Shown here: piece by piece, positions 1,084-6,785 of the stretch
How positions within the stretch are numbered: the stretch's first letter is position 1
How the letters are laid out: every line of letters starts with the position of its first letter
From: Candidatus Azobacteroides sp.
GTDB taxonomy: Bacteria > Bacteroidota > Bacteroidia > Bacteroidales > Azobacteroidaceae
Reading direction: 5' to 3'
Assembly: GCA_009778655.1 (NCBI GenBank)
Contig: WRFZ01000178.1
Location: 1-64,000, forward strand
DNA length: 64,000 bases
Translations under genes and position numbers: made by a program
The notes under the pieces: generated by a model
The model's input: only the letters and a program-made list of their open reading frames with translations
What the model was told of the DNA's origin: nothing
Databases searched by the model: none

Positions 1084-1120
1084 ATGAATTATGAATTATA
1101 AATTATGAATTATGAATTAA
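1084..1120. repeat. ATGAATT/ATAAATT repeat tract
   Basis: A tract of ATGAATT/ATAAATT units fills the gap between the HTH gene and the exporter, and overlaps the exporter stop codon (1117-1119). The same low-complexity unit recurs at about 36178-36240, 36363-36415 and 50091-50147. Confidence 0.7.
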
Positions 1121-3276
1121 AGCGTATTTGTTTGGTTGTTCCATAGTTTCCAATACATTCCTTGGGCTTCCGACAGTTGGGCGTGGGTACCGGTTTCCAC
1201 TACTTTCCCTTCTTGTAAGACAATAATATTATCGGCATGCTTAACGGTGCTTAACCTGTGAGCAATGATAACGATTGTTTTCCCTTCCCGGGCCAAATCC
1301 GTTAAAGTCTGTTTGACGTATTGTTCCGAAAGAGTATCCAAGGAGGAAGTCGCTTCGTCGAAAATCAGTAAATCGGGGTCTTTGTACAAAGCACGGGCAA
1401 TGGCAATTCGTTGCCGTTCGCCGCCGGAAAGCGATGCGCCATGCTCGCCGATAAACGTCCCGTAAGATTGAGGCAGGTTTTCGATAAATTCCCGGATGCC
1501 CAATCGTTCGCACAATGCGATGATTTTTTTCATGTCCGGTTCAAAATCGCCCAATGCAATGTTTTCGGTAACGGTTCCGGCAAACAGTTCAATTTGCTGA
1601 GGTACCGAACCGATTCGTTGCCGCAGACTTTCGTTACTGATTTGCGATAAATTGTAGTTCCCGATATAAATATTTCCCGATCGAATGGGATACAGATTTT
1701 GCAACAGTGAAACCAAAGTGGTTTTTCCGGAGCCGCTTTCTCCGACCACGGCTGTCGTTTGCCCTTTCCGAATAGTTAAAGTCAAAGAATCGAACACTTG
1801 TTTCCGTGAACCGTAGCGAAAAGCAACCGCTTGGAAATGAATGTCGCCGACCTCCGCTTTTTCCAATCGAATTTTTTGCGAATCGTCTTCTTCCCGTTCC
1901 AAATCCAGAATCTGAAACAAGCGGTCGGCGGCAATCAACGCATCCTGTATGGTTTGATTGGAAGCGATCAGTTTGCCGACCGGTCCAAGTACGTATCCGA
2001 CCAATGAATAGAAGAGCATTAACGTACCCGGCGTTATTTCTTGATGAATAACCAAGTTACTTCCCGCCCACAATACGGCAATCGTTATTCCCGTTGAAAC
2101 CAATTCGATTCCATTATTGGCAAGAATGGATCCGTAAATGCTTTGATACGTGTTTTTTAATACGTTAACAAAACGAAATTCCGTTTTCAGATTGGCAAAT
2201 GTTTCAACACCGAATTGTTTGATTGTCGAAACCGAATGGAGCGATTCCACCAAATGAGCTTCCAAATCCGCTCCGCTTTCCATGATTTTCCGTTGGTATT
2301 TTTTATTCAAGCGGTTAAAAAGATAGTAAATCAAGAGAAACAAAGGAGCGGATAACAAAGTGATTATCGCTAATTTCCAAGAAAAAATCAGCATGACACC
2401 GATGGTAAACAGTAAAATTAAAAAATTGACTGCCAAATCCAAAGAAACGTTGTTGATAAATACCCGAATTTTCACGGCGTCGTTGATACGGGAAATAATT
2501 TCCCCGACACGCATCGTATCAAAAAAAGACTGAGGTAAAGTAAGCAAGTGCTTGTAATAGCCCAGTATCAGGGAAGCATCTATCCGTTGTCCGGTTTGCA
2601 ATGCCAAAACGCTTTTCATCACGCCGATAAATATTCGCATGACAAGAATCAAGAGCATCACGATACTCATCAGGTTCAATAAATTCACATTCTGATCCGC
2701 TAATACATAATCGGTAATCTTTCCGACATAAACGGACGTAGAAAGTCCGAGGATACTGTAAATAATCGCGCCGAATAGGGCTTGCGTCATAACGCTCTGG
2801 TGCGGTCGTATCAAATCAATAAAGCTTCGTAAAGCGCTCTTTTTTTGATTTCCTCTTTGAAAAGTTTCGTTCGGAAGCATCAATATCAAAACGCCGGTCC
2901 ATTCTTTTTTAAATTCTTCGTGCGTCTTTTTATGCAATTTCCCGTCGCTCGGATCCATTACCGTAATCGTTTGATCTGTGACCTTGCAAATGACGACAAA
3001 ATGTTGCAATTGCTCTTTGACAATGACATGGGCAATCGCCGGTTTGGGAATTTCTTTTAAACATTCATACGGCCCCTTAACTCCTTTGGCTTCAAAACCC
3101 AATTTTTGAGCGGCTTCGATCATTCCCAAGACGTTGGTTCCTTTTTGGTCGGTAAAAGCGTACTGACGAATGCGGGCAATCGGCATTTTCAATCCGTAAT
3201 GAGCGGCAACCGAAGCCAAGCAAGCGGCGCCGCAATCGGTACTGTCGTGTTGTTTTATTTGAATACCTTTTTTCAT
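1117..3276 (-). CDS. C39 peptidase-containing ABC exporter (PCAT)
   Basis: A 719-residue exporter that removes double-glycine leaders and transports the released peptides across the inner membrane. The peptidase domain (1-135) has the full C39 catalytic set: Gln9, Cys15 in DSTDCGAACL, His92 in QHFVVI and Asp108 in VMDPSDG. The membrane domain (about 160-440) has six hydrophobic helices. The ATPase domain (about 480-719) has Walker A GESGSGKTT near residue 515, the signature LSGGERQR, and Walker B LLIFDEATSSLD. Length is normal for the family. The adaptor gene ends 18 bp upstream and the HTH gene starts 33 bp downstream, so these form one operon. No TolC-type outer-membrane channel is encoded in the window; one would have to be supplied from elsewhere. 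Confidence 0.95.
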   Translation of the reverse strand: MKKGIQIKQHDSTDCGAACLASVAAHYGLKMPIARIRQYAFTDQKGTNVLGMIEAAQKLGFEAKGVKGPYECLKEIPKPAIAHVIVKEQLQHFVVICKVTDQTITVMDPSDGKLHKKTHEEFKKEWTGVLILMLPNETFQRGNQKKSALRSFIDLIRPHQSVMTQALFGAIIYSILGLSTSVYVGKITDYVLADQNVNLLNLMSIVMLLILVMRIFIGVMKSVLALQTGQRIDASLILGYYKHLLTLPQSFFDTMRVGEIISRINDAVKIRVFINNVSLDLAVNFLILLFTIGVMLIFSWKLAIITLLSAPLFLLIYYLFNRLNKKYQRKIMESGADLEAHLVESLHSVSTIKQFGVETFANLKTEFRFVNVLKNTYQSIYGSILANNGIELVSTGITIAVLWAGSNLVIHQEITPGTLMLFYSLVGYVLGPVGKLIASNQTIQDALIAADRLFQILDLEREEDDSQKIRLEKAEVGDIHFQAVAFRYGSRKQVFDSLTLTIRKGQTTAVVGESGSGKTTLVSLLQNLYPIRSGNIYIGNYNLSQISNESLRQRIGSVPQQIELFAGTVTENIALGDFEPDMKKIIALCERLGIREFIENLPQSYGTFIGEHGASLSGGERQRIAIARALYKDPDLLIFDEATSSLDTLSEQYVKQTLTDLAREGKTIVIIAHRLSTVKHADNIIVLQEGKVVETGTHAQLSEAQGMYWKLWNNQTNTL

Positions 3277-3294: not shown

Positions 3295-4452
3295 CTATTC
3301 TTCCTTTTGGTTTTGCGTCGGATTCATCCAATCGTCCATTTTTTGATACAGGCAATCCAGCAACGATCGTCTTGTAATCCGGAAATGCGCATTCACCGTC
3401 ATTCCCTTTTTCAATAAACCTTTTACACCGTTTTTTCGTATTAAGTAACTCCTGTCCATGCTGCATTTGACTTTGTAGTAGAACTTATTTCCCGTATTGT
3501 CCGTCAAAAAATCGGAGGATATATCCGTTACTTTTCCGGAGATGCTTCCCCATTCATTGTAATTGAATGAACCGACTTGAATGTTTACCGGCATATTCGT
3601 ACTGATATAACCGATATTGGAAGGGGAAACATCAATTTCGGCATACAGCGTGGAATCGGGACTGACAACCGCCAACAAACTGCCGGATTGAATCATGCTG
3701 CCACGATAAATCCCGCTAAACTGGTCTAAAGTTCCGTTTACCAGACTGACAATCACATAACTGTCTTTTTCTTTCAACTGCTGTTTCAATGAATTGGTCA
3801 TTTCTTCCAAAGAATTGGTATAGGAGTTTAGATCATTTTGCCATTGACTGATTCGGTCGTTTTGCAGAGAAGCCGAGGCATTCCGGTCCTTATCATATTC
3901 GTAACGGTAATTTTCGTATTCTTCGGCGGAAATAACTCCTTTTTCAAACAAGATTTGATTTCGTTCCAAATCTTGTTGGGATTTGGCAAGATTCGTCTCC
4001 TGTTCCTGTTTATGCCGGATAAACAGGGCGTATTCCTGTCGGCGGCTTTCCGAAGCAAAGGAATCGGGCTTTAAGCCTTTGGATAGAAAAGTCAAATCGC
4101 TGATATGTTCCCGCAAATCCCGGATACGTTTTTTCTGATATTCGATTTGAAAATCCGGACTCGTTTGAAGAAAAGTTAAAATCGTGTCGCCTTGACGAAG
4201 CGTTTGTCCTTCCTTGACATAGATAGAATCAATCCGTTCCGTAATACTTGATTTAATTTCCGTCTTTTCACTTATCGGGCGGATAATGCCGGCGTCTTGT
4301 ACCGATATATCCACATAAACAAAAGGCAGAGCGCTGATAGCGAGTACAATGAAAGCGATTACAAGCAGGTAGATTTTCCGGGAGGAAGTAACGTATTTGC
4401 TAAGGTACGTGTCAATTCCGTTTAGAATTAACTCAGAGGGTAGTATATTCAT
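3295..4452 (-). CDS. HlyD-family membrane fusion protein
   Basis: A 385-residue periplasmic adaptor for the adjacent exporter. It has a cytoplasmic N-terminus, one membrane helix at about residues 27-48, a lipoyl-like half-motif (IYVKEGQTLRQGDTIL, 77-92), a long charged alpha-helical hairpin (about 105-225) and a beta-barrel region (VVSPDSTLYAEIDVSPSNIG) typical of HlyD/LctQ adaptors. It is the first gene of the export operon. No canonical promoter lies directly before it. The nearest match is at 4761-4791, which would give a transcript leader of about 300 nt containing a large palindromic element. Confidence 0.93.
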   Translation of the reverse strand: MNILPSELILNGIDTYLSKYVTSSRKIYLLVIAFIVLAISALPFVYVDISVQDAGIIRPISEKTEIKSSITERIDSIYVKEGQTLRQGDTILTFLQTSPDFQIEYQKKRIRDLREHISDLTFLSKGLKPDSFASESRRQEYALFIRHKQEQETNLAKSQQDLERNQILFEKGVISAEEYENYRYEYDKDRNASASLQNDRISQWQNDLNSYTNSLEEMTNSLKQQLKEKDSYVIVSLVNGTLDQFSGIYRGSMIQSGSLLAVVSPDSTLYAEIDVSPSNIGYISTNMPVNIQVGSFNYNEWGSISGKVTDISSDFLTDNTGNKFYYKVKCSMDRSYLIRKNGVKGLLKKGMTVNAHFRITRRSLLDCLYQKMDDWMNPTQNQKEE

Positions 4453-4502
4453 AAGTTAAAAAATCATGCTTTCAAGTCCCGAAAAAGCAATTTTTAAAAA
4501 TA

Positions 4503-4665
4503 ATAAAGCGTGGGACTATAACTTTATTCGCTTTCGAGGTCTTAGGATACCATTGCTACAAATAGAGTAAGCCCACGCCGTGAGGCGTGAGCGCCGACTA
4601 CTTACTCTTGTAGCTTTTTGAAATTTCCTAAGTTTCGAAAGCAAAAGTAAAAGCTAACGCTTTAT
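4503..4665. repeat. 163-bp nested palindromic element
   Basis: Five nested inverted-repeat pairs fold the segment into one long hairpin. They are ATAAAGCGT (4503-4511) with ACGCTTTAT (4657-4665), GCTTTCGA (4530-4537) with TCGAAAGC (4635-4642), CTTAGGA (4541-4547) with TCCTAAG (4626-4632), GCTACAA (4555-4561) with TTGTAGC (4608-4614), and GAGTAAG (4565-4571) with CTTACTC (4601-4607). A CACGCC/GGCGTG hairpin (4574-4589) lies inside the apical part. There is no ORF. It may be a MITE or REP-type element, or a structured RNA in the leader of the export operon. I do not recognise it as a named family. Confidence 0.8.
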
Positions 4666-4760
4666 CAAATATGTCTCACTTATATAAAGGCTTTTTACAT
4701 ATTCATTCTTTTTTAATTATTTTTATATTTGAATGAGCCGATACAAAGCTCTTGTGTTTG

Positions 4761-4791
4761 CAAAAGTACATTTTTTTTTGATATATGTCAA
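4761..4791 (-). promoter_or_regulatory. Probable promoter of the peptide-export operon
   Basis: On the minus strand: GTTG (4791-4788, one mismatch to TTTG), a spacer of about 19 bp, and TACTTTTG (4768-4761). A start near 4757 gives a leader of about 300 nt before the HlyD-type gene, running through the palindromic element. It sits just after the stop of the DUF4954 gene. Confidence 0.45.
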
Positions 4792-6785
4792 CGAATATCG
4801 GTAATTAATGATTTCATTTCATTGATCAGCCGGTCTCCCAATTCGGTTTTTTCTTCAATGTGTTGCAGAATCGAAGAAACAAAGGTGTTTTGCTCAAAAA
4901 CGCCTCGCACCTGCTCGAAGTCCAACCGTTGCTCATCATTGTTTCCGTCCGCTCCGAACCCGGTTTGAGCGGAAAGCGAAAATTCTTTTTCGGCATCTTG
5001 ATAAAGAATTTTATCTAATTTTATCACCGCTTCTTTCCAATCTTCAACCAGATGAATAATATCTTCCGGCGTTATCGTATCCGGTTTAAATCCGTAATAC
5101 GATTGAATTTTATCCCAAGCCCATGCCCATTCCAACACATAATAATTTCGGTGAATTTCTTCCAAAATATGATTTATTTCTTTGAGTTTATTGACTTTAC
5201 CCGATTCTATATCGCTTAATAAACGGTCAATTAACATTTTGGGAGCAATTAAACCGGCAATGTCCAACCATTCTCCTAAACCGTCGCTCGTTTCGGGATT
5301 CAATTGTTTTCGGAGCGCTTCGACGGAAGTAAACGGGTGTCCTTTGATTCGGGAAATAATCGAATTACCTAAAAACTTCTTGATAGCAATATGATACAAA
5401 TCAATTCCTTTTTTCAGTGAAGAATTTTTAATGCGGCAACTTTGGTACGAATAATACTCGGAGGTGTATCCGCAAGTTTCCTGTAATCCGTGCAAAATAT
5501 CAATGGCCCGAAACATTTTTTGAATGGTATAGGGACTCAGCAGATTGAAATTGAGTTGATCCAACAGATTCGGATCTTTTCTTTCATCTCTTTTCGGAAA
5601 TTTTTTCGCATCGCGAATCGTTCCTACGCTTCTCAAATTAACACCCGGAACCAAAATGGTTTCGTCTTTACTTTCAATTAAATAGGAAAAAGGCAGATTT
5701 GATGTATCGGAATTTCGGTAATGACGTCCCATAATCAAAGAGAAAGCGCCGATTTTAGCGGGCCATAAAACATAGGAGTCGCTGGTCGTTTTGCCTCCTC
5801 TTTCGATAATTCCTTGATGAATAGGGCCTAATTTGTACATGTGATTGCTTTGATTGGAGCCGGAACCGGCATTCATGAACGAAAACATACCGGCGATCAG
5901 CAGGGTGGACTTGTGATGCGTAACGGTATAAGGTCCGGCGAAAATGGCGCAAGCTTCTCCGTTTTCTCCTTGACAATTACAGAAAAACAAAGAGTCGCGA
6001 GCCGAATACCCATGTCCCAATCGGCAGGATTGTCCCACAAAACAACGGGTTAGCATCGTACCGTCTTCCACATGCGATCCGGAGCAAAGGATAAAATCTT
6101 CGGCGATAACGCCGTATCCCACATGAACCGGGTCGTATTCATTGCTGTTAATGCTTCCGTTTTCCAAACGGCACGCTCCTTCGATGCAGGCATTGTCGCC
6201 TATTTTTACGTTGCGGATGAATCCGGTATTCATAATTTTCACATGGTCGCCGATGGTTCCGATTTCCGAAGCATGTTTATCCGCATAAAAACGAATCATC
6301 TCGCGCAAATGTCGAACCAACTCCGGTCGGTGACGATACAAAGCCAGAATGTAAGCCACATGCGCCGAGAGTTTATCGTTAATCATCACTTCCCGGCCTC
6401 CCGTTTCGTTCAAGACAGCCACTTCCGTACCGTTTCCGAAAGCGGATTTTTCATCCGTAACCAAGCAGTCAAGATTTTGAATTAAAGTGTTATCTCCTAT
6501 CCTGTAATTGGCAATGTAGTTCTGTACGTTTTCTATCAATACATTATCTCCCAATTCGCAATTATGGATGGAAACATTGCGAAGTCCCGCCGTTTTTTTC
6601 AATCCGCCGGAAAAAGTAAATGTTCCGTCGGTTTTTCCGATTTTTATGTTTCCGGAAAAAGATACTTTGCGTATATTCTTCGGGTTAAATTCCGGATGAA
6701 CTTCGATGTCGTTCCAATCGGAAGCCGTACAATCGCGCGATTCCAAAAAGGTAATTTCCTTTGGCGTCAATTTTCTGAATGTCAT
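4788..6785 (-). CDS. DUF4954 family protein with left-handed beta-helix
   Basis: A 665-residue cytoplasmic protein of the DUF4954 type found in Bacteroidales. Residues about 60-330 contain imperfect hexapeptide repeats (NVKIGDNACIEGACRLENG, GDNVLIENV and similar), as in left-handed beta-helix acyl- or nucleotidyl-transferases. The C-terminal third (about 410-665) is alpha-helical and charged. Beta-helix proteins of this kind often act on nucleotide sugars, but the reaction of DUF4954 is not established, and nothing here fixes a substrate. There is no signal peptide. It ends just upstream of the peptide-export operon and starts 56 bp after hflX on the same strand. Confidence 0.85.
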   Translation of the reverse strand: MTFRKLTPKEITFLESRDCTASDWNDIEVHPEFNPKNIRKVSFSGNIKIGKTDGTFTFSGGLKKTAGLRNVSIHNCELGDNVLIENVQNYIANYRIGDNTLIQNLDCLVTDEKSAFGNGTEVAVLNETGGREVMINDKLSAHVAYILALYRHRPELVRHLREMIRFYADKHASEIGTIGDHVKIMNTGFIRNVKIGDNACIEGACRLENGSINSNEYDPVHVGYGVIAEDFILCSGSHVEDGTMLTRCFVGQSCRLGHGYSARDSLFFCNCQGENGEACAIFAGPYTVTHHKSTLLIAGMFSFMNAGSGSNQSNHMYKLGPIHQGIIERGGKTTSDSYVLWPAKIGAFSLIMGRHYRNSDTSNLPFSYLIESKDETILVPGVNLRSVGTIRDAKKFPKRDERKDPNLLDQLNFNLLSPYTIQKMFRAIDILHGLQETCGYTSEYYSYQSCRIKNSSLKKGIDLYHIAIKKFLGNSIISRIKGHPFTSVEALRKQLNPETSDGLGEWLDIAGLIAPKMLIDRLLSDIESGKVNKLKEINHILEEIHRNYYVLEWAWAWDKIQSYYGFKPDTITPEDIIHLVEDWKEAVIKLDKILYQDAEKEFSLSAQTGFGADGNNDEQRLDFEQVRGVFEQNTFVSSILQHIEEKTELGDRLINEMKSLITDIR

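Follow-up and report, generated by a model that had tools for sequence, protein, structure and literature searches.

Structured leaders and palindromic elements described so far

Several described systems can be compared with the nested palindrome found at positions 4503 to 4665 of the window, by which we mean the whole stretch of 64,000 nt that was analysed. The DUF805 RNA motif (Rfam RF03081, clan CL00115) is likewise a structured RNA, placed by Rfam in the class Cis-reg, and probably stems from the work of Weinberg in 2017; its 68-nt model, however, resembles our element neither in sequence nor in fold. Riboswitches of the translation type whose pseudoknot lies close to the start codon, such as preQ1 and SAM-II, share with the element the position in the 5' leader, the structured domain and a pseudoknot strand just before the AUG, but the element is a single long hairpin of about 160 nt, matches no Rfam family and, in Bacteroidia, has no Shine-Dalgarno (SD) sequence to sequester. 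The c-di-GMP riboswitches, as generally known, also occur in many copies per genome ahead of diverse surface and secretion genes, but they differ in fold, and the element is far more numerous in some genomes.

The palindromic candidates HMP2_4205 and HMP2_4078 of the human microbiome, of 109 to 132 bp and mostly from Bacteroidetes, are presented in PMC8040213; they are shorter than the element and are described near TPR or phage genes, a distinction drawn from these descriptions and not from compared alignments. Most of the Bacteroidetes RNA motifs reported in PMC2864571 have Rfam numbers and are thus covered by our cmscan comparison, whereas the GUCCY-hairpin, given there without an Rfam number, lies outside it. 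Two later papers on RNA discovery, searched as text, do not mention Bacteroidetes hosts.

With cmscan and Rfam 15, no family reached its gathering threshold on the element of the window or on the copies in 36 other loci, and permissive Rfam searches gave sub-threshold matches alone on the element. RF03081 was found beside the element but never on it, namely downstream of it in three loci (L065, L096 and L107), where it follows about 40 to 190 nt past the element and before the ORF, giving two structured leaders in tandem; in L107 a second DUF805 RNA occurs further downstream. The genome of the window has one RF03081 match above the cut-off, the copy in L065. In our best judgement the class to which the element belongs is unreported so far, the nearest palindromic candidates having been compared by description. 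Its kind, a cis-regulatory leader RNA, is known, while the class and its architecture appear to be new.

Fold and covariation of the element

The earlier note on this DNA had described a large nested palindrome of 163 nt, closed by a perfect 9-bp terminal inverted repeat and made of nested stems with an internal apical hairpin, and each of these features was recovered. The minus strand of 4503 to 4665 folds at -63.7 kcal/mol (z of -7.15, with none of 200 shuffles equally good). For the plus strand the value is -61.9 kcal/mol (z of -6.76 against shuffles), both strands folding well because the sequence is nearly palindromic. Read on the minus strand, the core is a long irregular hairpin with several nested stems, the helices P1 to P5, and a GC-rich apical hairpin. 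The terminal repeat constitutes the closing helix P1, whose 5' arm AUAAAGCGU (4657 to 4665) pairs perfectly with the 3' arm ACGCUUUAU (4503 to 4511), the latter being followed by a U-rich stretch. The palindrome is real, and the functional unit runs past 4503 to a further hairpin at 4468 to 4488.

The covariance analysis of the copies that had been proposed revealed compensatory changes in two alignments, of 28 and 71 copies. In the former, made with MAFFT on the minus strand and used to build the covariance model R1, 30 of the 54 base pairs are changed on both sides, and 90.8% of the cells pair, compared with 33.9 to 46.5% when the partners are slid. In the set of 71 divergent copies, non-redundant at 80% and aligned by fitting to the model, hence biased towards it, two-sided changes are seen in 45 of the 54 pairs; the two-sided cells number 626 against 187 ± 15 in shuffled controls and collapse when the partners are shifted by one column. 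P1 is paired in 90% of the cells over the 71 copies. Furthermore, the wobble count on the minus strand gives 395 G-U against 105 A-C combinations, an excess which indicates that the minus strand is the functional one, since the ratio would be reversed for the opposite strand; in agreement with this, the copy of the window scores 151.8 bits with R1 on the minus strand and 37 on the plus strand. Conserved unpaired positions are present as well. Read on the minus strand, the element belongs to a class of structured RNAs that covary.

In the flanks of six loci (L009, L019, L026, L035, L096 and L102) we could notice, by eye, a possible additional outer helix, with the 5' strands ACGCACA, ACACACA and ACGCGCA facing the co-varying 3' strands TGTGCGT, TGTGTGT and TGCGCGT.

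Promoter, orientation and spacing to the start codon

The element has the position of a leader, with a same-strand gene directly 3' and a promoter box 5', in many species. For the 122 copies whose flank was long enough, the closest ORF downstream shares the strand of the element 114 times and has the opposite strand once. A Bacteroidetes-type -7 box (TAnnTTTG) is found in the upstream 130 nt of 55 out of 69 non-redundant copies, against 7.5 ± 2.6 in first-order shuffles, mostly at 50 to 100 nt from the element, whereas only 4 of 68 downstream flanks contain it; in copies from outside Bacteroidales a similar box is often seen, by eye, about 20 to 35 nt ahead of the element. The box of the window reads TACTTTTG (4761 to 4768, minus strand), at the 3' edge of the promoter-like sequence (4761 to 4791) that had been thought to read through the palindrome into the HlyD-type gene, as transcription from the box would indeed do. 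Transcription would start near 4750 to 4758 as judged from the box, and so probably upstream of the element rather than downstream of 4503. A generic sigma-70 scan did not pick up the promoter of the window, as expected for a box of the Bacteroidetes type. The gene ahead of the leader encodes a DUF4954/DUF6819 protein (4788 to 6785, minus strand) and stops some 20 nt short of the -7 box.

The further hairpin, P6 (4468 to 4488, minus strand, GCUUU-UUCGGGACUUG-AAAGC), displays in its loop the sequence GGGACU (4475 to 4480), complementary to AGUCCC (4512 to 4517), which lies immediately 5' of the 3' arm of P1. Across the family P6 begins about 13 nt past the element, and its stem is free to change in sequence while remaining complementary, as in CCATGT/GCATGG, CTCACT/AGTGAG, TACCAA/TTGGTA and TTGCC/GGCAA. 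Because several rows of a MAFFT alignment of the 3' region had the GGGAC loop in the wrong place, the statistics of P6 and the pseudoknot were computed by script: both occur together in 40 of 67 non-redundant copies, compared with 12.4 ± 2.6 in shuffled, 26.9 ± 2.1 in species-swapped and 6 in reverse-complement controls, the height of the swapped control showing that the pseudoknot signal is in part plain sequence conservation. The pseudoknot core was found in 20 of 31 cases, against 12.9 swapped and 4.1 shuffled, and covariant forms of it exist (TTTTGTCC/GGACAAAA and CTGTCCC/GGGACGG). By the criterion used, 27 of the 67 copies have no P6, among them the copies L062 to L066 of the genome of the window. 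The geometry is that of an H-type pseudoknot, with the 3' arm of P1 adjoining the pseudoknot strand; the pseudoknot is less strongly supported than P1 to P5.

The end of P6 is also set at a rather fixed distance from translation starts. In 25 of 31 divergent copies, a set selected from the P6-positive ones, the first AUG lies 13 to 20 nt past P6 (median, 17 nt), where 3.4 would be expected; in the window the AUG of the HlyD-type gene (4452) follows P6 by 15 nt. Just ahead of it, the sequence AUG AUU UUU UAA (4456 to 4467, minus strand) is a weak candidate for a 3-codon upstream ORF. In some symbionts the AUG at the position fixed by P6 opens an upstream ORF of 3 to 8 codons (MQNKS*, MKHIKKI*) and not the main gene, and termite symbionts like G015 have their main ORF 200 to 430 nt downstream, with other hairpins or an upstream ORF of 3 to 8 codons intervening.

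Copies and distribution of the family

The palindrome is multi-copy, with hundreds of relatives across a major class of gut and environmental bacteria, and covarying; it is not the single-copy sequence without covariation that would have told against the earlier note. The DNA search of its own genome and of relatives, which the earlier note had recommended, found a second copy in the own genome at 88% identity and copies in 14 of 41 relatives. With R1, seven copies were identified in the own genome, at most 88% identical by the DNA search and the remaining ones detected by the structure model alone, and copies were present in 34 of the 41 genomes of the genus. In Bacteroidales the search found copies in 155 of 393 genomes and in 94 of 206 genera; across the phylum sample they occur in 55 of 393 genomes, being sparser in other Bacteroidia and Bacteroidota.

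With lax filters, the R1 counts per genome rise within the genus to 120 in G012, 105 in G002 and 78 in G015; G002 and G015 we take to be termite-gut symbionts. Under the same filters cultured genomes hold few copies, namely 7 in Alistipes muris, 6 in Dysgonomonas sp. 216, 4 each in Alistipes sp. dk3624 and Sunxiuqinia indica, 3 in Pedobacter jejuensis and 2 in Draconibacterium orientale. Two genomes of the genus (G003 and G024, of 1.0 to 1.2 Mb and 99% complete) gave no copies in the R1 search, an absence that would fit a loss alongside reduced surface biology.

In G015 and G049 many contigs stop 40 to 600 nt past the element, which indicates that the region downstream is repetitive, and surface proteins of the GLLLP or Fib_succ_major type are strongly expanded in these two genomes. 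One copy is found on the IMG/VR contig IMGVR_UViG_3300029995_000342 (12311 to 12483), ahead of a gene of the RteC family (Pfam RteC, 6.3e-43); a mobile, or misclassified, element can thus carry the leader. The plasmid and phage collections gave no DNA match to the element.

Genes downstream of the leader

In the window the first gene behind the leader encodes an HlyD-type membrane fusion protein (3295 to 4452; Pfam HlyD_3, 9.4e-14), followed on the same minus strand by a Peptidase-C39 ABC peptide exporter (1117 to 3276; Pfam Peptidase_C39, 4.2e-37, with ABC_membrane and ABC_tran) and by a small HTH-like protein (766 to 1083), both likely co-transcribed; the small protein has no Pfam match and resembles, by eye, the HTH protein under the second own-genome copy. 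A further minus-strand ORF (465 to 650), also free of Pfam matches, has the features of a double-glycine-type peptide precursor (ELGNVNGG) and likely encodes the cargo of the exporter. The own genome has another peptide operon behind a copy of the leader, at 4121 to 6727 (minus strand) of the locus G000:C182:42000-50000, with an HTH protein, a MKKMNFEQMETINGG... peptide (QMETINGG) and an ABC permease and ATPase; the leader is thus common to two unlinked peptide operons. G045 and strain PG1894_155 likewise have HlyD genes behind the leader, the protein of the latter being 63% identical to that of the window.

In the family as a whole, the majority of the downstream genes encode secreted proteins or lipoproteins, alongside peptide exporters, HTH regulators and SusC-like receptors. 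By a crude hydrophobicity rule, 37 of 59 downstream proteins have signal-peptide-like starts, compared with 38 of 180 background ORFs, and the Pfam domains include BspA-type LRR, BACON, Fib_succ_major, OMP barrel, TonB plug, CsgG, HlyD, HTH, RteC and LytTR. The gene content behind the leader indicates no clear ligand.

Additional hairpins accompany some copies. In three loci (L263, L265 and L268) another conserved hairpin, GGCCCTCTA...TAGAGG(A)CC, stands between the element and a SusC-like gene, with no obvious P6. In copies of G002, G015, G016 and G049 (for example L033, L067, L069, L071 and L085) a long hairpin, GGTAAAGACAACT...GGTTGTCTTTACC, follows the leader, and in G002, G016 and G049 a short upstream ORF of the MQNKS* or MKHIKKI* kind also precedes the surface-protein gene. 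The extra hairpin and upstream ORF of these symbionts look like a second attenuation stage.

Proposed function and alternative explanations

The earlier note had left a MITE, a REP element, a cis-regulatory RNA and an independent ncRNA side by side; the cis-regulatory option is strongly supported by the covariation, the fixed orientation, the upstream promoter box and the fixed AUG spacing, while the others fit poorly. We consider it probable that the element acts in cis, as a 5' leader RNA through which the peptide-export operon is controlled at the initiation of translation, and that it belongs to a family spread over the class. The promoter at about 4761 to 4791 would give an mRNA beginning with some 300 nt of leader, which would fold into the long hairpin P1 to P5, backed by covariation, and the second hairpin P6, whose loop could pair through GGGACU with AGUCCC beside the base of P1 to form the pseudoknot. 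P6 ends about 17 nt before the first AUG, where the edge of the 30S footprint on an mRNA is expected, and the forming or opening of the P1/pseudoknot/P6 fold may set the ease with which ribosomes start at this AUG, the trigger being perhaps a metabolite, a protein, temperature or the state of the ribosome. Initiation in Bacteroidia does without SD pairing and favours adenines upstream as well as low structure (PMC9976891), and it is from this, together with the end of P6 and the pseudoknot where the 30S footprint should begin, that a control of initiation can be hypothesized. The genes brought under common control by the leader would then be chiefly those for surface proteins, secreted proteins, peptide exporters and their regulators.

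The main alternative would be a transcription attenuator, in which P1 and the U-rich run terminate transcription unless the fold is altered by a ligand, a protein or leader translation, so that the length of the mRNA is controlled instead of initiation. Five or more T in a row stand behind the 3' arm of P1 in 50 of 70 non-redundant copies, and P1 is conserved and paired at the high rate given above; P1 is, however, short and A-U rich, with an insert of 145 nt, a terminator scan gave no terminator-like site at the element, and termination would leave P6 and its fixed spacing to the AUG unexplained, for which reasons we regard this as rather unlikely. Only a little more doubtful is a ribosome-docking leader, in which hairpin, pseudoknot and P6 would bind the 30S subunit or position it at a set distance from the AUG, as a small IRES-type element; the anti-Shine-Dalgarno of the host ribosomes would be hidden, and the leader would license the translation of a surface- and secreted-protein regulon.

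A trans-acting small RNA, transcribed and released on its own and lying before genes by chance, would be in keeping with the own promoter box, a possible terminator and up to 120 copies per genome, but it would need neither the 114-to-1 preference for same-strand genes nor the fixed AUG spacing, and we hold it to be improbable. More improbable still is an insertion near genes of mobile palindromic DNA, be it a MITE or a REP element, or of a site for recombination at the DNA level: the perfect 9-bp terminal repeats, the many dispersed copies per genome and the flanks common to copies in some termite symbionts are what such DNA would show, but compensatory base-pair changes, a wobble bias on one strand and the nearly uniform orientation are not, the copies are divergent (the best of the own genome at 88%, others reached by the structure model alone), and the plasmid and phage collections hold no match at the DNA level. 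Target-site duplications were not noticed in the flanks of some copies, inspected non-systematically. REP elements, moreover, are clustered palindromes of 20 to 40 nt with a RAYT gene, whereas the present unit measures about 160 nt and is mostly single. An integron attC site, suggested by the nested palindrome and its GTTAGC-like end, was set aside on the context of the copies: they are dispersed, mostly one per contig, each ahead of an ORF and with its own promoter box.

Returning to the proposed leader RNA, a covarying leader with tens to more than 100 copies in one genome, spread across Bacteroidia and outside Rfam, would fill a large gap in what is known of gene control in a phylum that dominates the gut. 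With its constant distance from the AUG it offers a handle on start-site choice and control where Shine-Dalgarno pairing is unused, and the leader unites unlinked genes, for surface adhesins, SusC-like receptors, peptide exporters and regulators, in one testable regulon.
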